A stretch of DNA of 32,868 nucleotides from the NCBI GenBank assembly GCA_944322575.1, contig CALUPK010000022.1, forward strand, positions 1 to 32,868, written 5' to 3'. Numbering within the stretch: position 1 is the first letter of the stretch; each line of letters begins with the position of its first letter. The notes under the pieces were generated by a model. The model worked only from the letters and a program-made list of their open reading frames with translations. It was not told the origin of the DNA and made no database searches. This DNA is from an uncultured Bacteroidales bacterium (GTDB lineage: Bacteria; Bacteroidota; Bacteroidia; Bacteroidales; UBA932). Shown here one piece after another: positions 21,117 through 32,809 of this stretch. A program made the position numbers and the translations under genes.

Positions 21117-21436
21117 GACAAAAAAGTGGAATACGGAAGAATGAAGTAATAGAATTGATTTACAGAGGTTTCATTTAAGCTGCCGATTCTCTCCAACGCC
21201 ACCACAATCCTTGCAAAAGCCAAATCAAGACGTCGCTACGTTACTTGTTCGTAACCATACCATATAGGTAACAAAATGGGTACGAATGGCAAAACAAGAC
21301 ATTGTGATATAGTGAGTTACTGACAACTCACGCAACAAATCCGGTTACGGAAAAAGATTGCGCCGTTCCTCCGTGTTTTGCGTACTGACGAAGGATTCTT
21401 CACCGACTAATTTTGAACCTAAAAAAATTAAGGACG
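21117..21436. other. Att region and integrase leader, no gene
   Basis: No convincing gene is present in this stretch. It holds several copies of GTTAC/GTAAC: an inverted pair at 21240-21255 (GTTAC-N6-GTAAC), then GGTAAC at 21267-21272, GTTAC at 21316-21320 and GTTACGG at 21344-21350. It also holds a hairpin GTGAGTT-N6-AACTCAC at 21312-21331. These could be arm-type integrase sites or binding sites for excision proteins. A perfect -7 box, TAATTTTG, at 21408-21415 lies 22 nt before the integrase start, without a matching -33. Confidence 0.5.
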
Positions 21437-22672
21437 ATGAAGAGTACATTTTCAGTTATCTACTACCTCAAACGTCAGGTAGTGAAAAAGGACGGGACAG
21501 TACCCGTCATGGGACGTATCACGGTGGACGGAAGCCAGACACAGTTCAGCTGCAAACTGACCGTCGATCCCAAGCTGTGGGATACCAAAGGAGGACGTGT
21601 CACGGGCAGAAGCACGGCTGCACTCGAAACGAACCGTATGCTCGACAAGATGCGCGTACGCATCAACAAGCACTATCAGGAAATCATGGAGCGTGACAAC
21701 TTCGTCACTGCGGAAAAGGTGAAAAACGCCTTTCTCGGACTGGAACACCGCTACCACACGCTGTTGCAGGTGTTCCGGCAACACAACGAGGACTATGCCA
21801 AGCAGGTGGAGGCAGGCATGAAAGCCAAAGGCACGTTTGACAAGTACAAGATCGTTTACAAGCACTTGCAAGAGTTTCTCACCATCCGCTACCACGTGAA
21901 GGACATTGCCCTGAAAGAGCTTACACCCGCTTTCATTTCCGATTTTGAAATGTTCCTGCGCACGGACAAACACTGCTGCACCAATACCGTGTGGCTGTAT
22001 GTCTGCCCGCTTCGGACGATGGTGTTCATCGCCATCAACAATGAGTGGCTCACGCGCGACCCGTTCCGCGAGTATGAAATCAAGAAGGAGGAAACGACCC
22101 GCAGCTTTCTGACGAAAGATGAAATCCGCCTGCTGATGGAAGGTAAACTGAAGAATGCGAAGCAAGAACTGTATCGTGATTTATACCTGTTCTGCGCCTT
22201 CACGGGCTTGTCGTTCGCCGATATGCGCAACCTGACGGAAGAGAATATCCGCACCTACTTTGACGAACACGAGTGGATAAACATCAACCGCCAGAAGACG
22301 GGTGTGGTGTCCAACATCCGTATGCTCGACATAGCGAAGCGCATCATCGACAAATACCGTGGGCTGTGCGGGGACGGCAGGATATTCCCCGTACCCCACT
22401 ATAACACGTGCCTTGCCGGAATCCGTGCCGTCGCCAAGCGTTGCGGTATCACCAAGCATATTACATGGCATCAAAGCCGCCATACGGCCGCCACGACGGT
22501 GTTCCTCTCCAACGGCGTACCCATCGAAACGGTCAGTTCCATGCTGGGACACAAGAGCATAAAGACAACGCAGATATACGCGAAAATAACCAAAGAGAAG
22601 CTCAATCAAGACATGGAGAACCTTGCCGCGAGATTGAACCAAATCGAAGAATTTGCAGGTTGTACCATCTAA
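21437..22672 (+). CDS. int: Tyrosine recombinase, IntDOT-like integrase
   Basis: 411 residues from the ATG at 21437 with AAGGA 4 nt before it, the same length as IntDOT; an upstream ATG at 21413 overlaps the -7 box and is rejected. It integrates and excises the element through a Holliday junction, tolerating mismatches in the overlap. The arm-binding start is KSTFSVIYYLKRQVVKKDGTVPVMGRI. The core-binding domain is at about 80-215 and the catalytic domain after 220. Catalytic positions read Ser259 (in TGLSFADM, in place of the usual Arg I), Lys287, His345, Arg348, His372 and Tyr381. The Ser at 259 is the IntDOT hallmark. It is followed by a RhuM-like gene after 12 nt. Confidence 0.96.
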   Translation: MKSTFSVIYYLKRQVVKKDGTVPVMGRITVDGSQTQFSCKLTVDPKLWDTKGGRVTGRSTAALETNRMLDKMRVRINKHYQEIMERDNFVTAEKVKNAFLGLEHRYHTLLQVFRQHNEDYAKQVEAGMKAKGTFDKYKIVYKHLQEFLTIRYHVKDIALKELTPAFISDFEMFLRTDKHCCTNTVWLYVCPLRTMVFIAINNEWLTRDPFREYEIKKEETTRSFLTKDEIRLLMEGKLKNAKQELYRDLYLFCAFTGLSFADMRNLTEENIRTYFDEHEWININRQKTGVVSNIRMLDIAKRIIDKYRGLCGDGRIFPVPHYNTCLAGIRAVAKRCGITKHITWHQSRHTAATTVFLSNGVPIETVSSMLGHKSIKTTQIYAKITKEKLNQDMENLAARLNQIEEFAGCTI

Positions 22673-23129: not shown

Positions 23130-23435
23130 TTATTCTATTGGCTTGCGGTAATTCGCCTCCAGCAGTTCACGCAATCCCGATTCGGGGTAAAGCACTTTTC
23201 CTCCTAAAAGGATGAAGGGCAATACCCTGTTGTTGCGGTATTCCTGCAAGGTACGGCGGCTCACACGGAGCAAGTCCGCCACCTCCCTGTCCGTCAGGTA
23301 ACGTTCCCCGTCCAGCGGCGGACGGTAGTTTTCCAAAAATGCGGAGAGCCATTTAGAGCCTTTGCGCATATTCTGCACCACGGTGGCAACCGGTTCGTCC
23401 TCCAGTGTAAAAACATCGTTGTTCTCGTTCATCAT
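23130..23435 (-). CDS. Small HTH (MerR/excisionase-like) protein
   Basis: 101 residues (start at 23435; a second Met follows at once). The C-terminal half is a helix-turn-helix of the excisionase/MerR type: YLTDREVADLLRVSRRTLQEYRNNRVLPFILLGGKVLYPESGLRELL. It is one of four small HTH proteins here that share S-x-R-T-L-Q. Position, upstream of xis2c in CTnDOT-type elements, corresponds to the orf2a/orf2b region. It forms a two-gene minus-strand unit with the 99-residue protein 30 nt upstream. It probably acts in regulating or assisting excision, but its partner sites are unknown. Confidence 0.82.
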   Translation of the reverse strand: MMNENNDVFTLEDEPVATVVQNMRKGSKWLSAFLENYRPPLDGERYLTDREVADLLRVSRRTLQEYRNNRVLPFILLGGKVLYPESGLRELLEANYRKPIE

Positions 23436-23465
23436 AACTTCGGATTCAGTGGGTGAATAATAAGA

Positions 23466-24780: not shown

Positions 24781-26349
24781 ATGGCAAAGAAAACAACTGA
24801 AAAGGACGTGCTGATAGTCCGTGACGAAAAGACGGGCGAAATCAGCGTGGTAGCCGGGCTGGATGCCGACGGCTCTCCCAAGCGTACCCCCGCGAAAGCG
24901 GAGAACGCGCAGAGTTTCCTGCAATTCGACCGCCACGGCGACGTGTTGGACAACTTCTTCAAAAACTTCTTCCGGCAGTGCAAGGAACCCAGCCGCTTCG
25001 GTTTCTACCGTGTCGCGGCAGACCAAGCCGACAAACTGCTGGAGGTAATGAAAGACCTGCTGAAAGACCCCGAAGCCAACAAGGAACTGCTTGCGCCCCA
25101 CAAGGTGGACACCTCCGGTTACGAGAAGCAGGTAAAGGAAGAGCAGACTACCAAAAAGACGGAACAAACGGAACAAAAACAGGAAGAAATGGAAAAGAAA
25201 CAAGAACAGAATCAGGAAAGCTCGCAACAAGCGCAGGGCAGACGGGGCTACCAACCCATCGACGAGAGCAAAATCAACTGGCAGGAGCTGGAAGAGAAAT
25301 GGGGCGTGAAACGTGACGACCTTGAAAAGTCCGGCGACCTGACCAAAATGCTCAACTACGGCAAGTCCGATTTGGTAAAGGTGTCGCCCAAGTTCGGCGG
25401 CGAGGCTTTTGAACTGGACGCCCGCCTCTCTTTCAAGAAAGACGGTGAAGGCAATATCAGCCTCGTGCCGCACTTCATCCGCAAGGAGCAGAAGCTCGAC
25501 GAGTACAAGGAACACAAGTTCTCCGACGAAGACCGTAAGAACCTGCGCGAAACGGGCAACCTCGGCAGGGTCGTGGACATCGTGGACAGGGAAACGGGTG
25601 AAATCATCCCCTCGTTCATCAGCATAGACCGCAAGACAAATGAAATCACGGACATACCAGCGAACAAGGTACGCATACCGGAACGCATCGGAAAAACGGA
25701 AATCACCAAGCAGGAACAGGATATGTTGCGTGCCGGGCTACCTGTACGCGACAAGCTCATCGAACGCAACGACGGCAGGAAGTTCGTCACCACTCTTCAA
25801 GTGAACGTCGAGCAGCGAGGCGTGGAGTTCGTACCGGGAACCGGCAGGTCGCCCCGTACCGCCCAGACGCAGGAAGCCAAGAACAATCCCACGCAGGGAC
25901 AGGCTCAGGGCATGGAAAATTCCGCAGCCCCACAGAAAGAGCAACGCCGCAACACGTGGACGAACGCTGATGGTAGCATCCGCCCCATCAGCAAATGGAG
26001 TGGCGTGAACTTCACCGACCAGCAGAAAGCCGATTACGCAGCGGGTAAGGCGATAAAGTTGGAGAACGTGACAGACAAACAGGGTTTCCATGCCACGATG
26101 TATATCAAGTTCAACCCGGAGAAAGGTCGTCCTTATCGCTACGACACCAATCCTGACAACGCACAGAAGGTAGCCCCCTCCAACGAAAGCCGCACACAGG
26201 TGGCGGTGAACAGCGAGGGCAAGACCAACGAGGCGACCAAGAACCTGAAAGAGCCGTTGCAGAAGGGACAGACCGCTCCGAAGGACGACAAGCAGCAACA
26301 GCAGCAGGAGAAACCACAGAAGAAAAACAATAAGGGCATGAAGATGTAA
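24781..26349 (+). CDS. Orf3 of the excision operon, DUF4099/DUF3945-type protein
   Basis: 522 residues, soluble. The first 110 residues are compact (FLQFDRHGDVLDNFFKNFFRQCKEPSRFGFYRVAADQADKLLE). A Gln/Glu/Lys-rich spacer follows at about 115-155. A DUF4099-like part (INWQELEEKWGVKRDDLEKSGDLTKMLNYGKSDLV) covers about 162-230. Then come three related segments of DUF3945 type, starting FSDEDRKNLRETGNL, ITKQEQDMLRAGLPV and FTDQQKADYAAGKAI, each followed by a beta region. The tail is again Gln/Lys rich. In CTnDOT orf3 is co-transcribed with xis2c, xis2d and exc; its precise function is not known to me. Confidence 0.85.
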   Translation: MAKKTTEKDVLIVRDEKTGEISVVAGLDADGSPKRTPAKAENAQSFLQFDRHGDVLDNFFKNFFRQCKEPSRFGFYRVAADQADKLLEVMKDLLKDPEANKELLAPHKVDTSGYEKQVKEEQTTKKTEQTEQKQEEMEKKQEQNQESSQQAQGRRGYQPIDESKINWQELEEKWGVKRDDLEKSGDLTKMLNYGKSDLVKVSPKFGGEAFELDARLSFKKDGEGNISLVPHFIRKEQKLDEYKEHKFSDEDRKNLRETGNLGRVVDIVDRETGEIIPSFISIDRKTNEITDIPANKVRIPERIGKTEITKQEQDMLRAGLPVRDKLIERNDGRKFVTTLQVNVEQRGVEFVPGTGRSPRTAQTQEAKNNPTQGQAQGMENSAAPQKEQRRNTWTNADGSIRPISKWSGVNFTDQQKADYAAGKAIKLENVTDKQGFHATMYIKFNPEKGRPYRYDTNPDNAQKVAPSNESRTQVAVNSEGKTNEATKNLKEPLQKGQTAPKDDKQQQQQEKPQKKNNKGMKM

Positions 26350-26362
26350 TCTCCCGTGTCCG

Positions 26363-26380
26363 CCACTAAATCCAAAGTAA
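26363..26380 (+). promoter_or_regulatory. Leader element of exc complementary to the downstream small RNA
   Basis: CCACTAAATCCAAAGTAA lies 25-42 nt before the exc ATG. Its first 17 nt are perfectly complementary to 28562-28578 of the small-RNA candidate, and pairing can extend to 20 bp with one G-U into 26360. A near copy with one extra T precedes the DUF1896 gene. Confidence 0.6.
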
Positions 26381-26404: not shown

Positions 26405-28501
26405 ATGAAGACAATCATTGCAGAAAAGCCATCCGTGGCACGTGAGATTGCCCGCATCGTGGGCGCGACAAAAAGAGAGGAAGGATATTTCGAGGGAGGC
26501 GACTACGCCGTGACATGGGCATTCGGACACCTCGTCCAGCTTGCCATGCCCGACGGCTACGGCATACGCGGCTTCGTCCGCGACAACCTGCCCGTCATCC
26601 CCGGAACCTTCACGCTCATTCCCCGTCAGGAAAAGACGGAGAAGGGCTACAAACCCGACAGCGGCGTGGTGTCGCAGATAAAAATCATCGCCCGTCTTTT
26701 CAAGGAAAGCGAGCAGATCATCGTGGCGACCGATGCAGGGCGTGAGGGTGAACTTATCTTCCGATACCTCTACCATTATATCGGATGTACCACGCCTTTC
26801 GTGCGCCTTTGGATAAGCTCGCTTACCGACAAGGCTATCCGCGAGGGACTGCGCAACCTTGAAGCAGGAAGCAAGTATGACAGCCTCTATCTTGCCGCCA
26901 AAGCACGGAGCGAATCCGACTGGCTTGTGGGCATCAACGGCACGCAGGCACTCTCCATCGCCGCCGGACACGGCACATATTCCGTCGGACGGGTGCAGAC
27001 ACCCACGCTGGCGATGGTGTGCGCACGTTATTGGGAGAACCGCCGTTTCACGGTTGAACCGTTCTGGCAGCTCCATATTGCCACTGACGATGGCAACGGC
27101 GAAGTGGTGAAATTCTCTTCTTCCGAGAAATGGAAAGAGAAAGAACCGGCGACGGAACTATATAATAAGGTGAAGGAAGCAGGCACAGCTACTGTAACGA
27201 AAGCAGAACGTAAGGAGAAGATAGAGGACACTCCGCTTCTGTACGACCTGACCACGCTCCAGAAGGAAGCCAACGCCAAGCACGGCTTCACGGCGGAGCA
27301 GACACTCGAAATCGCGCAGAAGCTCTACGAGAAGAAACTTATCACCTATCCGAGAACCGGAAGCCGCTACATCCCCGAAGACGTGTTCGTGGAAATTCCC
27401 AAGTTGCTCGCCTTCATCGGCAACCTGCCCGAATGGAAAGACAAAGTCAATCCGAAGGCAGTGCCTACACGCCGCAGCGTGGACGGCGGCAAGGTAACAG
27501 ACCACCATGCCCTGCTCGTCACGGGAGAGAAACCGCTGTTCCTCTCCAAAGAAGATAATACCGTCTATCAGATGATTGCCGGACGCATGATTGAGGCTTT
27601 CTCTGAAAAATGCGTCAAAGACACCGCTACTGTTACGGCGGAGTGTGCCGGAGTGGAGTTCGTGGCAAAAGGCAGCATCATCAAACAAGCCGGGTGGCGT
27701 GCCGTCTATGTCGAGGAAGAGAAAGAGAAAGAGGAAACCATCATCCCCGGCTGGCAGGAAGGCGATACGCTGGCACTGAAAGCCGCTTCCATCACGGAGG
27801 GAAAGACCAAACCCAAGCCGCTGCATACCGAAGCCACCCTGCTGTCCGCAATGGAAACGGCAGGCAAGGAGATTGAGGACGACGCACTGCGGCAGGCATT
27901 GAAGGACTGCGGCATCGGCACGCCTGCCACCCGTGCCGCCATCATCGAAACGCTCTTCAAACGCGGTTACATGGAACGTTGCAAGAAGTCACTTGTACCC
28001 ACCGAAAAAGGACTTGCCCTCTATTCGGTTGTGAAGACGATGCGCATCGCCGACGTCGCCATGACGGGCGAATGGGAGAAGGAACTGGCACGCATCGAGC
28101 GCGGGGAACTGCCCGCCGATACCTTCCGCAAGGAGATAGAGGCGTACACAAAGGAGATTGCCTCCGAATTGCTCTCGTGCGACAAACTGTTCGCCCGCAG
28201 GGATTCCGGATGCAAGTGTCCCCAGTGTGGAACGGGCAGTATGCAGTTCTACGGCAAGGTTGTCCGCTGCGACAACGCGGAGTGCGGGCTGCCCGTGTTC
28301 CGCCTGAAGGCAAACCGTACCCTCACCGATGACGAGATCAAAGACCTGCTCACCGACGGACATACGAAGCTGCTCAAAGGCTTCAAGAGCAAGCAGGGCA
28401 AGAGCTTCGATGCCGTGGTTGCCTTTGACGGGGACTACAACACGACTTTCGTGTTCCCCGAAAGGAAAAGTAAGGCAACTTCTACGAGAAGAAGGAAATA
28501 A
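26405..28501 (+). CDS. exc: DNA topoisomerase III, excision operon gene exc
   Basis: 698 residues. A type IA topoisomerase that cuts and passes single strands through a 5'-phosphotyrosine link. The toprim domain has EKPS at the start (Glu7) and DAGREGE with Asp110. The catalytic tyrosine is Tyr315 in LITYPRTGSRYIPED. Zinc-finger Cys (CKCPQCG and CDNAEC) lie near residue 600. A short C-terminal domain ends with a basic tail. In CTnDOT Exc is the last gene of the excision operon and stimulates excision. Its 56-nt leader contains the sequence complementary to the small RNA that is encoded right after the gene. Confidence 0.95.
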   Translation: MKTIIAEKPSVAREIARIVGATKREEGYFEGGDYAVTWAFGHLVQLAMPDGYGIRGFVRDNLPVIPGTFTLIPRQEKTEKGYKPDSGVVSQIKIIARLFKESEQIIVATDAGREGELIFRYLYHYIGCTTPFVRLWISSLTDKAIREGLRNLEAGSKYDSLYLAAKARSESDWLVGINGTQALSIAAGHGTYSVGRVQTPTLAMVCARYWENRRFTVEPFWQLHIATDDGNGEVVKFSSSEKWKEKEPATELYNKVKEAGTATVTKAERKEKIEDTPLLYDLTTLQKEANAKHGFTAEQTLEIAQKLYEKKLITYPRTGSRYIPEDVFVEIPKLLAFIGNLPEWKDKVNPKAVPTRRSVDGGKVTDHHALLVTGEKPLFLSKEDNTVYQMIAGRMIEAFSEKCVKDTATVTAECAGVEFVAKGSIIKQAGWRAVYVEEEKEKEETIIPGWQEGDTLALKAASITEGKTKPKPLHTEATLLSAMETAGKEIEDDALRQALKDCGIGTPATRAAIIETLFKRGYMERCKKSLVPTEKGLALYSVVKTMRIADVAMTGEWEKELARIERGELPADTFRKEIEAYTKEIASELLSCDKLFARRDSGCKCPQCGTGSMQFYGKVVRCDNAECGLPVFRLKANRTLTDDEIKDLLTDGHTKLLKGFKSKQGKSFDAVVAFDGDYNTTFVFPERKSKATSTRRRK

Positions 28502-28505
28502 TGAG

Positions 28506-28513
28506 TAACTTTG
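28506..28513 (+). promoter_or_regulatory. -7 box of the small-RNA gene
   Basis: TAACTTTG fits the consensus fully and starts 4 nt past the exc stop; transcription would start near 28518. With its flanks it reads GTAACTTTGC (28505-28514), a full match to the IntDOT core as well. No TTTG is seen 19-21 nt upstream. Confidence 0.55.
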
Positions 28514-28517
28514 CCAC

Positions 28518-28612
28518 TGATTCAGAGTAATGAACTGTTCTTCGATACCGGATTACACTCATACTTTGGATTTAGTGGTGGCACTCGGAGGGATACCGAG
28601 TGCCTTTTCTTT
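28518..28612 (+). ncRNA. rteR: Small RNA candidate at the RteR position
   Basis: A gene of about 90-95 nt is defined by the -7 box at 28506-28513 and the terminator at 28580-28612. It has no sensible reading frame. CTnDOT encodes a trans-acting small RNA, RteR, immediately downstream of exc, which inhibits the transfer genes; position and size agree, though I cannot align the sequences here. The stretch ACTTTGGATTTAGTGG (28563-28578), just before the terminator hairpin, is in the usual place for an sRNA seed. It is complementary to the exc leader and to the DUF1896 start region. Confidence 0.6.
28580..28612 (+). terminator. Rho-independent terminator of the exc operon and small RNA
   Basis: GGCACTCGG (28580-28588), a 7-nt loop and CCGAGTGCC (28596-28604) form a perfect 9-bp stem followed by TTTTCTTT. 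It ends the excision operon transcript and the small RNA. Confidence 0.9.
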
Positions 28613-28650: not shown

Positions 28651-28669
28651 CCACTAAATTCCAAAGTAA
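28651..28669 (+). promoter_or_regulatory. Second small-RNA-complementary element, overlapping the DUF1896 start
   Basis: CCACTAAATTCCAAAGTAA repeats the exc leader element with one added T, and its last base is the A of the ATG at 28669. It is also the inverted copy of 28562-28578, so in a read-through transcript the two would pair in cis and enclose the terminator. Confidence 0.6.
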
Positions 28670-29121
28670 TGAACAACAAGAAGAAAAACGAAGGACAGAC
28701 CGACTTTTCCTACTACGGTCTGTACCTGCTGGACTATCTCAGAACGAACAAATTTGAACAGGCGACCGACGAAGCCTTCATCCGTGAACGCGCCGACCGT
28801 GCCGCAGGAACGTATGAACGGGCAATGCTCGAAGGCTATCCTGCTGCTGGTGCGCAGGAACTGGCGATGAACACATTGCTGGAGGGGCTTCGCTACTCCA
28901 AGTACGCCATCCTGCGCGAAGTCGTGGAAAACGAGTTTGCCGACGACGTGCCGGAAGCGGAGCGTGAATCCTTTACCCGGAAACTGCTGCCGCTTGTCGG
29001 AAACGTATTCTCCATTTATGACCTCTCGGACGACAATTTCGCCCTGTCGCCCGATTATGACCTGCTCTACACGGAGCTGACGGGGGCTGTCGTCCTTTAT
29101 ATAGAGGAATATGGCGTTTAA
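28669..29121 (+). CDS. DUF1896 domain protein
   Basis: 150 residues from the ATG at 28669 (MNNKKKNEGQTDFSYYG); the frame is open to 28600 but that part covers the terminator. The sequence DFSYYGLYLLDYLRTNKFEQATDEAFIRERADRAAGTYERAMLEGY and ALREVVENEF-like helices match DUF1896, a small family confined largely to Bacteroidales conjugative elements, with no known function. It overlaps the methylase/helicase gene by 11 nt, so the two are translated together. Its start region can pair with the small RNA encoded just upstream. Confidence 0.84.
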   Translation: MNNKKKNEGQTDFSYYGLYLLDYLRTNKFEQATDEAFIRERADRAAGTYERAMLEGYPAAGAQELAMNTLLEGLRYSKYAILREVVENEFADDVPEAERESFTRKLLPLVGNVFSIYDLSDDNFALSPDYDLLYTELTGAVVLYIEEYGV

Positions 29122-32100
29122 CCGCAAACAAAGGTTGCGGGACAACATCGAGGCGATACGGACGGCATTCGTCCTTGACAAGGAACAGAGAACGGCGACA
29201 ACCGAGGAACAGGCGATACTCCGGAAGTATTGCGGTTTCGGCGGGCTGAAATGTATTCTGAACCCTGCAAGGGAACTGACGGATGCCGTCCACTGGGCGA
29301 AATCCGACCTCGAACTGTTTGCCCCTACCGTGGAACTGCACAGGCTGATACGGGAGAACAGCCGGAACGACTTGGGGTACAAACGGTTTGTGGATTCGCT
29401 GAAAGCGTCCGTGCTGACAGCCTTCTACACACCGAAAGAGATAACAGACACCATAGCCGATGTGCTGGCGGATTACAGTGTCCACCCGTCGCGTGTGCTG
29501 GAGCCGTCGGCCGGTGTCGGCGTTTTCGTGGACGCCGTGCTGCGGCACAGTCCCAACGCGGATGTGATGGCGTTTGAAAAAGACCTCCTCACGGGTACTA
29601 TCCTGCAACAGCTCCACCCCGACAAAAAGATGCGCATAGACGGTTTTGAGAAAATCGAAAAGCCGTTCAACAACTATTTCGACTTGGCAGTGTCCAACAT
29701 CCCGTTCGGTGACATAGCCGTGTTTGACGCTGAATTTCAAAGGAGTGAATCTTTCGGCAGACGCTCATCACAGAAAGCCATCCACAACTATTTTTTCCTA
29801 AAAGGACTGGACACGGTGCGCGACGGCGGCATCGTGGCTTTCATCACGTCGCAGGGAGTGCTGAACAGTGCCAAGACCTCCGTGCGCAACGAACTTTTTA
29901 GTCAGGCGAATCTGGTATCGGCAATCCGACTGCCCAACAACCTGTTTTCGGATAACGCGGGGACAGAGGTGGGCAGCGACCTGATAATTCTGCAAAAGAA
30001 CCTGCACAAGACGGAAATGTCGCAGGATGAACGGCTACTGACCGTGATACAGACGGATACGAAGACAAACCTGACGGACAACGCCTATTTCATCCACCAT
30101 CCCGAACGTATCGTGCATACGACCGCGAAACTCGACACCGATCCTTACGGCAAGCCCGCAATGGTCTATCTGCACGAAGGCAAAACCGCAGGCATCGCCG
30201 GGGATTTGCGCCGTATGCTTGACGAGGACTGTCATTTCAGGCTTGCCATGCGCCTGTATTCGGGCGCAATCGGGCAGGCACGGGAACGGCTTGCCGTTGA
30301 AACAAAGGTGGAACCCCAAACTGCAAAGCTGGAAACGGTATCTTCGGCACGGGCAGAAGAAATCCACGTGGATAAACCGCAGACACAACCGATAAAGGAA
30401 AAACCGGAAATAGAGCCACGCCAACAAAATCACTCGGCAGCCGTGCAGCTCACCCTGCTTGACCTTTGGGGAATGCCCATAGAAGAACCTGTCAAAAAGA
30501 AAAAGACGGCGAAGAAAGGAAACACGACAAAACGAACTGTACCTAATCCTAAGCCGCAGGTTACGGCTGTACCTCCTGTTGAAACCGCCAAAGCTATAAA
30601 CGGGAACAAGGAAACAAAGCCGGAGAATACCGTTAAACAAAGCGGCCCTGACGATATTTATGCCACACTGGACTGGGAAACCAATCCTCCCATCAACGGC
30701 TTTTACGAGATGATGATGGGTTTGACACCGGAACGGCGAAAGGAGCTTCGAAGGCTGGCTGCGGAACATCAAGAGAAACAACGGGTAGGCGGCACGTATG
30801 TAAAAGCCACTCCTGCCATACCGGAAAAAGAAGCGAGGAAACAGCCCGAAGCACAGCAGGAAGTCACCCCCGATCACGTTACGGACAATAATGCAAGTGT
30901 GAAACCGGCGACTTCCCTTTTCCCGGAATTTGAAACGGAAAAGCCGAAGGAGGAACCTCTCGACCTTTCTCCCCGTCCGTTTAATGGTATACTGGAGCCG
31001 CACCACCGTGACGGCTCGATGGTGTTGGACGCTTCACGCAATCTCGGCTACCTGAAAGACATCACGCCTTACGGCGCGACATTCCAGCCGCTTGACCTGA
31101 CCGGTTACCAGAAGGAGAAAGCTATGCTGTATGTGTCGCTCCGTGACACATACGAGCGTTTATACAACTACGAAGCGGAGTATCACGATGAAGGGGTGGC
31201 GCAACGTGAGGCATTGAACACCTGTTACGACGAGTTTGTCATGCGCTACGGCAACCTCAACGCCAAACAAAACGTGAAGTTAGTGATGATGGATGCCGGC
31301 GGGCGCGACATCCTTTCGCTGGAACGTGCAGAGGACGGCAAGTTTGTCAAGGCGGACATCTTCGAGCGTCCCGTTTCCTTCTCGGTGGAGAACCACGCCA
31401 ATGTCGGTTCTCCCGAAGAAGCCTTGTCCGCTTCGCTCAACAAGTACGGTACGGTCAATCTCGACTATATGCGGGGAATAACCGACAGTACGGAAGAGGA
31501 ACTGCTCAATGCCCTCAAAGGACGTATCTTCTACAATCCGCTCGTAACCGGTTACGAGATTAAAGACCGCTTCATTGCGGGGAACGTGATAGAGAAAGCG
31601 GAGCGCATAGAGGCATGGATAGGCGGTAATCCCGAAAACGAAAGATTGCCGGAGGTGAAACAGGCTTTGGAGGCTTTGAAGGAAGCCGAACCGCAGCGCA
31701 TCGCCTTTGAAGACCTCGACTTCAACTTCGGTGAACGCTGGATTCCGACGGGCGTATATGCCGCCTACATGAGCCGTCTTTTTGACACGGACGTGAAAAT
31801 CGCCTACTCCGCAAGCATGGACGAATTTTCGGTGGCGTGTGGCTACCGCACCATGAAGATCACGGACGAATTTCTGGTAAAGGGCTATTACCGGAACTAT
31901 GACGGTATGCACCTGTTGAAACACGCCCTGCACAACACCTGCCCTGATATGATGAAGTCCATCGGCAAGGACGAGAACGGCAATGACATCAAGGTGCGTG
32001 ACAGCGAGGGCATACAACTTGCCAATGCCAAGATTGACGAAATCCGTAACGGATTCTCGGAATGGTTGGAAGAGCAGTCGCCGCAGTTCAAGGAACGGCT

Positions 32101-32809
32101 GACGACGATGTACAACCGCAAGTTCAACTGTTTCGTGCGACCGAAGTATGACGGCTCGCACCAGACCTTCCCCGACCTCAATCTGAAAGGATTGGCAAGC
32201 CGTGGTATTCAAAGCGTTTATCCGTCGCAGAAGGATTGCGTCTGGATGATAAAACAGAACGGCGGCGGAATATGCGACCATGAAGTCGGAACAGGTAAGA
32301 CGCTGATAATGTGCATTGCAGCGCATGAAATGAAGCGTCTGAACTTGGCGCATAAGCCGATGATTATTGGTCTGAAAGCCAATGTCGCGGAGATTGCCGC
32401 CACTTATCAAGCTGCCTATCCGAATGCCCGCATCCTCTACGCTTCGGAAAAGGATTTCTCGACCGCCAACCGTGTGCGTTTCTTCAACAACATCAAAAAC
32501 AACGATTACGATTGCGTCATCATGTCGCACGACCAGTTCGGCAAGATACCGCAATCACCGGAGTTGCAGCAGCGTATCCTGCAAGCGGAGCTTGACACGG
32601 TGGAGGAAAACCTCGAAGTGTTGCGTGAGCAGGGAAAGAACGTGTCGCGGGCGATACTGAAAGGGCTGGAGAAGCGCAAGCACAACCTTGTGGCTAAATT
32701 GGAGAAGGTGGAACACGCCATCCAATCGCGCACGGACGACGTGGTGGATTTCAAACAGATGGGCATCGACCACATCTTCATAGATGAATCGCATTATCAG
32801 AACTTTTAG
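29111..32809 (+). pseudogene. N6-adenine methylase/SNF2-type helicase of conjugative elements, truncated
   Basis: 1232 residues to a TAG at 32807-32809. Proteins of this kind in Bacteroides elements are about 1,900 residues or more. A methyltransferase-like domain is near the N-terminus: motif I VLEPSAGVGVF at about 129, motif IV SNIPFGD at about 195. A Lys/Pro/Thr-rich linker is at about 400-620. A helicase domain starts near 1056 with EVGTGKT (Walker A-like) and includes DESH at about 1224 (motif II). The frame stops six residues later, before motifs III-VI, where AT-rich DNA unlike the gene begins. An insertion is the simplest reading; a frameshift is less likely. The C-terminal helicase half may lie beyond the window. 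Confidence 0.8.

Follow-up and report, generated by a model that had tools for sequence, protein, structure and literature searches.

Predicted pairing of a candidate RteR-family small RNA with the start regions of several genes in a putative CTnDOT-like integrative and conjugative element

Which messages does a small RNA encoded directly after the exc gene of a mobile element address, and by what means? The stretch of DNA analyzed here, hereafter the window, comprises 32,868 nucleotides (nt) from an uncultured Bacteroidales bacterium (UBA932; GCA_944322575.1, contig CALUPK010000022.1, positions 1-32,868, forward strand) and probably holds part of a CTnDOT-like integrative and conjugative element. 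The literature passages that we compared present RteR as a small RNA that acts on the tra operon of CTnDOT, a gut Bacteroides element with tetracycline resistance. Our analysis makes it probable that an RNA of the RteR family represses the translation of excision, mobilization and transfer genes by pairing with their messages; the sequence supports the pairing, from which we infer the repression. The candidate RNA lies between exc and the DUF1896 gene, with the following parts.

28506..28513, plus strand: promoter box TAACTTTG, fitting the Bacteroides -7 motif TAnnTTTG as read by eye
28518..28612, plus strand: predicted RteR-family small RNA of about 90-95 nt (Rfam RF04181; fold z -4.44; predicted ends)
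28519..28572, plus strand: 5' hairpin of the predicted fold, its 3' arm containing most of the seed
28562..28581, plus strand: seed, with 28573-28579 single-stranded in the predicted fold
28580..28612, plus strand: intrinsic terminator with T-rich tail (stem 28580-28604)

An earlier note on this DNA had placed a small RNA in the position of RteR, with a seed just 5' of a strong terminator, and both placements agree with what we find. The window RNA lies just after exc, has its own terminator and a predicted length of 90-95 nt, a layout like that of RteR, which is likewise described as lying directly downstream of exc. At curated cut-offs, Rfam reported nothing in the window; rteR (RF04181) appeared in a lax search only, at 39.4 bits (E 7e-5), and because this falls short of the gathering cut-off of 72 the window RNA is a distant relative, not a member, of the Rfam family. 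The RNA at 28518-28612 folds at -34.1 kcal/mol, a value that none of 200 shuffles reached. Between 26300 and 29200 there are six terminator-like sites, where shuffles would lead one to expect 3.8, and the strongest of the six is the one at 28580-28604. We take TAnnTTTG to be the -7 promoter motif of Bacteroides and name TAACTTTG a promoter box on that basis, with a transcript start that can be guessed at about 28517-28520. A sigma-70 promoter scan found no promoter, as is expected for Bacteroides. Boxes similar to TAACTTTG precede those small RNA copies of relatives that we inspected for them, a conservation that is partly built in, because our small-RNA finder demanded GTGG before the terminator, GGGA in or next to the loop and TTTGC, TTTAC or TTCGC upstream, so that these letters are fixed by construction.

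The predicted fold leaves 28573-28579 free as a possible nucleation point for pairing. The 5' arm of the 5' hairpin resembles a target site yet pairs less well with the seed, and a consensus fold across 15 element types keeps the same layout, the seed lying mostly in the 5' hairpin with a free end before the terminator. In 12 of these 15 types the hairpin has a G-U where the messenger RNA (mRNA) site offers A-U, so the mRNA is probably the better partner for the seed.

The letters CCACT at 28514-28518, directly after the promoter box, form pairs with the end of the seed when the types are folded to a consensus, and their counterpart changes along with the seed end (CCACA with TGTGG in types G and H); this stretch may precede the transcript start. 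In one small RNA copy among the relatives (L123, G389:C1:21700-27200), seed and terminator are set apart by additional sequence that includes a second ATTAGTGGTG.

The sites that match the seed, which we call target tags, and the genes that they concern in the window are the following.

26360..26379, plus strand: target tag in the exc leader (duplex energy -29.5 kcal/mol; exc ATG at 26405)
26405..28501, plus strand: exc, topoisomerase III-like, target gene (Pfam PF01131, PF01751, PF13342)
23436..23452, minus strand: target tag immediately upstream of the HTH_17 gene's ATG (duplex energy -27.7 kcal/mol)
23130..23435, minus strand: HTH_17 / excisionase-like gene, target gene (PF12728; TIGR01764 at 28.7 bits, just below the cut-off of 28.8)
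28651..28668, plus strand: target tag with a one-base bulge directly before the DUF1896 ATG (28669; duplex energy -24.0 kcal/mol)
28669..29121, plus strand: DUF1896 gene, target gene (Pfam PF08989)
24781..26349, plus strand: orf3-position gene, DUF4099/DUF3945 (Pfam), a tag-bearing gene in type F elements

Positions 26363-26379 read CCACTAAATCCAAAGTA and are identical to the minus strand of 28562-28578, an exact complement of 17 nt that extends to 20 bp with one G-U when 26360-26379 is set against 28562-28581. Both this match and its distance from exc, which the earlier note had given as 25-42 nt before the ATG, were recovered on recomputation: the site spans -42 to -26 and ends 25 nt before the ATG at 26405. 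Allowing three mismatches, the 17-mer occurs three times in the window, the small RNA itself being one and the HTH tag the third, where 0.03 occurrences are expected and none of 100 shuffles reaches three. With the folding of both partners taken into account, exc ranks first among the window's 124 start regions at -21.9 kcal/mol, compared with -4.6 +/- 1.4 kcal/mol (minimum -9.8) for 200 shuffled leaders. The second and third places in this ranking fall to two ATGs of the helix-turn-helix (HTH) gene, the fourth to an open reading frame (ORF) inside exc and the fifth to the DUF1896 gene, whose bulged tag at 28651-28668 escapes an ungapped 17-mer scan. The orf3-position gene bears no tag in the window and gives -9.0 kcal/mol. 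A promoter role for the tag was ruled out, its reverse complement containing no TAnnTTTG by eye.

A complete element shows how far such a set of tags can extend. The circular record NZ_OR675140 (L283, L284; 55.7 kb) carries an integrase, exc, the DUF1896 gene, tet(Q), mobABC and tra genes, together with an annotated ATP-binding protein, a sigma-54 dependent regulator and an RteC-domain protein, and between its exc and DUF1896 genes it has an RNA closely related to that of the window. Ranked against its own seed, the top six of its 58 annotated start regions are HTH (-27.4), exc (-26.1), mobA (-25.5), DUF1896 (-23.8), traI (-22.5) and traN (-20.6); the seventh stands at -17.0, the median at -11.4 and traE at -9.8. 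The HTH, mobA, DUF1896, traI and traN tags of this element end within a few bases of the ATG. Although recorded as a plasmid, NZ_OR675140 resembles a circularized tet(Q) integrative element into which another mobile element, bringing integrases of its own, seems to have inserted between traG and DUF3876.

Across eight genomes chosen for carrying the small RNA, the 17-mer at zero or one mismatch was found at 37 places, compared with none for the reversed pattern. Ten of these places are the small RNA itself and 24 others lie at most about 75 kb from a copy of it; at two (G561:3066111 and G529:4424500) no ORF of at least 60 amino acids (aa) starts within 150 nt. Those of the 24 that we inspected precede mobA, traE, traN, exc or DUF1896; the gene families in G561 are MobA (NF041324), DUF4134 (traE), DUF4141 (traI) and TraN (TIGR03780). 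In type A elements the traI tag is bulged and the traE tag lies about 70 nt before the ATG, and in types C and G the traN tags also lie further upstream. Eight distant DUF1896 homologues (L010-L017, 34-42 percent identity) have no exc-like gene in front and no tag by eye. At the one remaining place, L199 (G735:C1:2462509), the tag lies right at the beginning of an HTH-like gene, roughly 278 kb away from the small RNA of G735, and may therefore belong to another element that uses the same code.

One comparison kept 80 of 123 relatives. The 31 element regions used for the counts were hand-picked for diversity among the matches of several searches and so are not a random sample. One small RNA was found in 29 of the 31; it was missed in G497 and G719, which were left out of later counts. 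For each element and gene class we took one best homologue, by homology, elements with no match not being counted, and scored its leader against that element's own seed with a mark of -18 kcal/mol or better, which is no proof of a tag. The mark was reached by the leaders of exc in 15 of 27 elements, DUF1896 in 15 of 17, mobA in 8 of 11, traI in 7 of 9, traN in 8 of 8, traE in 4 of 10, HTH in 9 of 21 (HTH_17 genes are multi-copy, and the best homologue may be the wrong one) and orf3 in 7 of 26. Because the elements are related, these counts are not independent events. In types B, P and F the exc tag is absent while other tags remain. Three types have RNAs above the Rfam cut-off, and of these type F bears its tag at orf3 (5/5), close to the ATG, and none at exc, and type G bears it at exc (2/2 measured).

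Seed and tag also change in step, as tabulated over 240 single-seed loci, many of them overlapping or representing the same element more than once. The seed core GGATTAAGTGG occurs with the tag CCACTTAATCC at five leaders (DUF1896, HTH, mobA, traI and traN) and with CCACTTGATCC, at the cost of one G-U, further upstream of exc; GATTTTTGTGG occurs with CCACAAAAAT at three leaders (exc, traE and traN). The exc and DUF1896 leaders carry CCACTAAAAAA where the seed core is TTTTTTAGTGG, and orf3 carries CCACTAAAATT where it is AATTTTAGTGG. When only one side differs, the commonest variants still leave a G-U pair, as with CCACTGAATCC in the leaders of exc and HTH and CCGCTAAATCC in that of mobA, and CCACTAAATTC at DUF1896 allows two readings, a G-U or a bulge. 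Exceptions that stay unpaired are the type D exc tag, the type A traE tag, a single site at orf3 and the seed variant GGACTTAGTGG. When seeds were permuted among 15 types and 72 leaders, the observed mean of -17.45 stood against -14.73 +/- 0.60, and none of 20,000 permutations was as low. One seed fits several start regions and changes with them in a compensatory manner, as is expected of a trans-acting small RNA that works by base pairing.

These observations enabled us to propose a model. The small RNA would have a promoter of its own in the gap that separates exc from DUF1896, and its seed would pair with an address tag resembling CCACTAAATCCAAAGTA on several mRNAs of the same element: those of exc, DUF1896 and the HTH/excisionase-like gene in the window, and in relatives those of mobA, traI, traN and sometimes traE or orf3, the last in place of exc. 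Pairing may begin at the free seed end before the terminator and then open the 5' hairpin. The seed and the tags can be read directly from the DNA, as can their positions and the way in which they change in step; that the RNA is made and pairs in cells, and that the outcome is repression, are the steps that the model would add. Since most of the observed tags reach to only a few bases from the start codon, pairing most likely blocks the access of ribosomes. Passages of PMC7366714 describe adenines at -3, -6 and -11 to -15 as important for translation in Bacteroidetes, the region in which many of the tags lie. Within the tra operon, a block of translation at traI and traN would plausibly reduce later transcripts, lowering later genes more than early ones, which would fit the discoordinate expression of this operon that the passages on it describe.

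Several results weigh against this model or narrow it. The exc leader falls below the mark in 12 of 27 elements; ten of these twelve have another measured leader at the mark, although in type L this is an orf3 match with no clean tag. In type H, the third type with an RNA above the Rfam cut-off, the one element measured has no measured leader at -18; the same holds for type I, where other start regions reach -21.3, and type K offered no homologous leader for measurement. Distinct seed-site combinations are well paired in 7/27 cases for exc, 12/17 for DUF1896, 4/21 for HTH, 4/7 for mobA, 4/6 for traI, 5/5 for traN, 2/8 for traE and 5/29 for orf3, the remainder being leaders with no tag, other homologues included. 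An element's own seed is the best of the 15 for only 19 of 72 leaders, all of them within the 40 strong ones, in part because several types have GGATTTAGTGG in common and cross-pair. Looser scans discriminate less: at up to three mismatches the 17-mer gave 143 places in the eight genomes against 101 for the reversed pattern, a moderate excess, and an 11-mer scan with G-U allowed gave 98 leader sites against 47 in the control, about twofold, with 280 against 320 elsewhere, a scan too degenerate to prove much. In the window, a shuffled DUF1896 leader reached -13.5 kcal/mol against -11.7 for the real one. Neither mobA nor traN has a match in the window's own genome, a fragmentary assembly, and as targets they are therefore known from relatives only. 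Finally, the blocking of start codons does not directly fit exc of type A (25 nt in the window), traE of type A (about 70 nt) or traN of types C and G, because these tags lie upstream.

Two elements of type H show irregular exc genes and, given also that type H leaders stay below the mark where measured, are perhaps decaying: in L018 exc appears as two separate matches, and in L109 it has an early stop after the best match.

The position of these upstream tags lends substance to a second explanation, in which the pairing is real and acts mainly on mRNA stability, transcription termination or activation rather than on ribosome access. The exc tag at -42 to -26, the type A traE tag and the discoordinate tra expression noted above would all suit it. 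Five tags of NZ_OR675140 end near the ATG, as does the orf3 tag of type F, and these positions favor a translational block, so that we regard an effect of this other kind as possible, if doubtful, as the main one.

It is also conceivable that tags and seed are repeated binding sites for a DNA-binding protein encoded by the element, the copy in the small RNA being an inverted site. Short repeats common to several operons and changing together are what such a protein would leave behind, and protein-DNA coevolution would give the same record as RNA pairing. Against this, the tags stand before start codons in the sense direction, even between closely packed tra genes, the seed copy is antisense and lies just before a terminator wherever the small RNA was found (29/31 regions), and the G-U pairs retained in the commonest one-sided variants would not be favored by such a protein. 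Taken together, these features make the protein explanation improbable.

The earlier note had interpreted the pairing as direct antisense control of exc, a feedback loop private to the excision module. The pairing is indeed predicted from the sequence, and exc surpasses the other genes of the window in length of match and in binding energy alike, so this part of the interpretation stands; exc is only one of several targets, and with DUF1896, HTH, mobA, traI, traN and sometimes traE or orf3 also matching, and the exc leader below the mark in 12 of 27 elements, a loop private to exc is too narrow. The DUF1896, mobA, traI and traN tags are kept in a larger share of the measured elements than that of exc, and types B, P and F dispense with the exc tag altogether, which leaves exc as the sole regulated gene a very unlikely reading. 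The note had also proposed conservation of seed and leader as a check, with their independent divergence as the outcome that would count against it. In several divergent elements the exc pairing is kept with compensatory changes, and in the 12 elements below the mark it does not reach that strength, so that divergence of this kind did occur in part for exc. A comparison by longest exact complement within the exc region alone was erratic, because the further targets had not yet been considered.

A match by chance, or as a functionless leftover of local duplication, hardly merits belief: the DUF1896 leader and the 5' arm of the small RNA have a 13-nt near repeat in common, and a local duplication may have occurred, but against both origins stands the way in which seeds and tags change in step, in different seed types and at a number of genes that are not linked. 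Seeds and tags drifting independently would speak for this reading, and our sample shows the opposite.

Returning to an RteR-family RNA that represses through shared tags, it is useful to set it beside known systems. The enteric small RNAs RybB and GcvB also use one seed against several mRNA start regions, acting with Hfq on chromosomal genes, whereas here the seed is carried along with its tags by a single mobile element. The sgm-sRNA of Salmonella Genomic Island 1 is, like the window RNA, encoded by an element and is described in passages of PMC9299015 as needed for the mobilization of its own element; it derives from a 3' untranslated region in an unrelated element, and those passages mention no repeated tag over many genes. 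FinP of F-like plasmids, according to the same passages (PMC9299015), is likewise an RNA and represses conjugation via traJ, as an antisense RNA with the protein FinO as its partner, in contrast to the several unlinked targets and common short tag seen here. With respect to RteR itself, tags in the tra and mob genes would offer a direct route to its described effect on the tra operon. The literature passages on RteR and CTnDOT that we compared, among which the primary 2012 RteR paper was not included, name no target sites or tags. The types whose RNAs exceed the Rfam cut-off differ in target (orf3 in F, exc in G, none in H), and the window RNA lies below that cut-off. We therefore propose as new a relative of RteR with an element-wide, co-changing set of targets, while an earlier description may exist.

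If the model is correct, the tags provide a concrete target list for an RNA of the RteR family, explain how one RNA could restrain a whole element and would account for the discoordinate expression of the tra genes. A seed and unlinked tags that travel and change together on a mobile element, with a compensatory record in many elements, would make this an unusual case. More tentatively, RteR-family RNAs may govern whole elements by means of an address code, in which a seed specific to the element type meets matching tags on the genes for excision, mobilization, transfer and regulation. Were this so, co-resident elements with differing codes would come under separate control, whereas those that have one code in common would silence one another, a form of mutual exclusion based on RNA.

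The remainder of the window agrees in part with a CTnDOT-like element, the gene set from the integrase through Exc, HTH genes included, being present, and two further genes were placed as follows.

21413-22669: tyrosine integrase
29111-32809: DNA methylase gene

tet(Q) was not seen in the window, which ends inside the methylase gene and before the position that tet(Q) occupies in NZ_OR675140. The methylase frame stops after 1232 aa, with the end of the window shortly beyond, and corresponds to residues 1-1237 of the 1946-aa protein of L283 (NZ_OR675140) at 83 percent.
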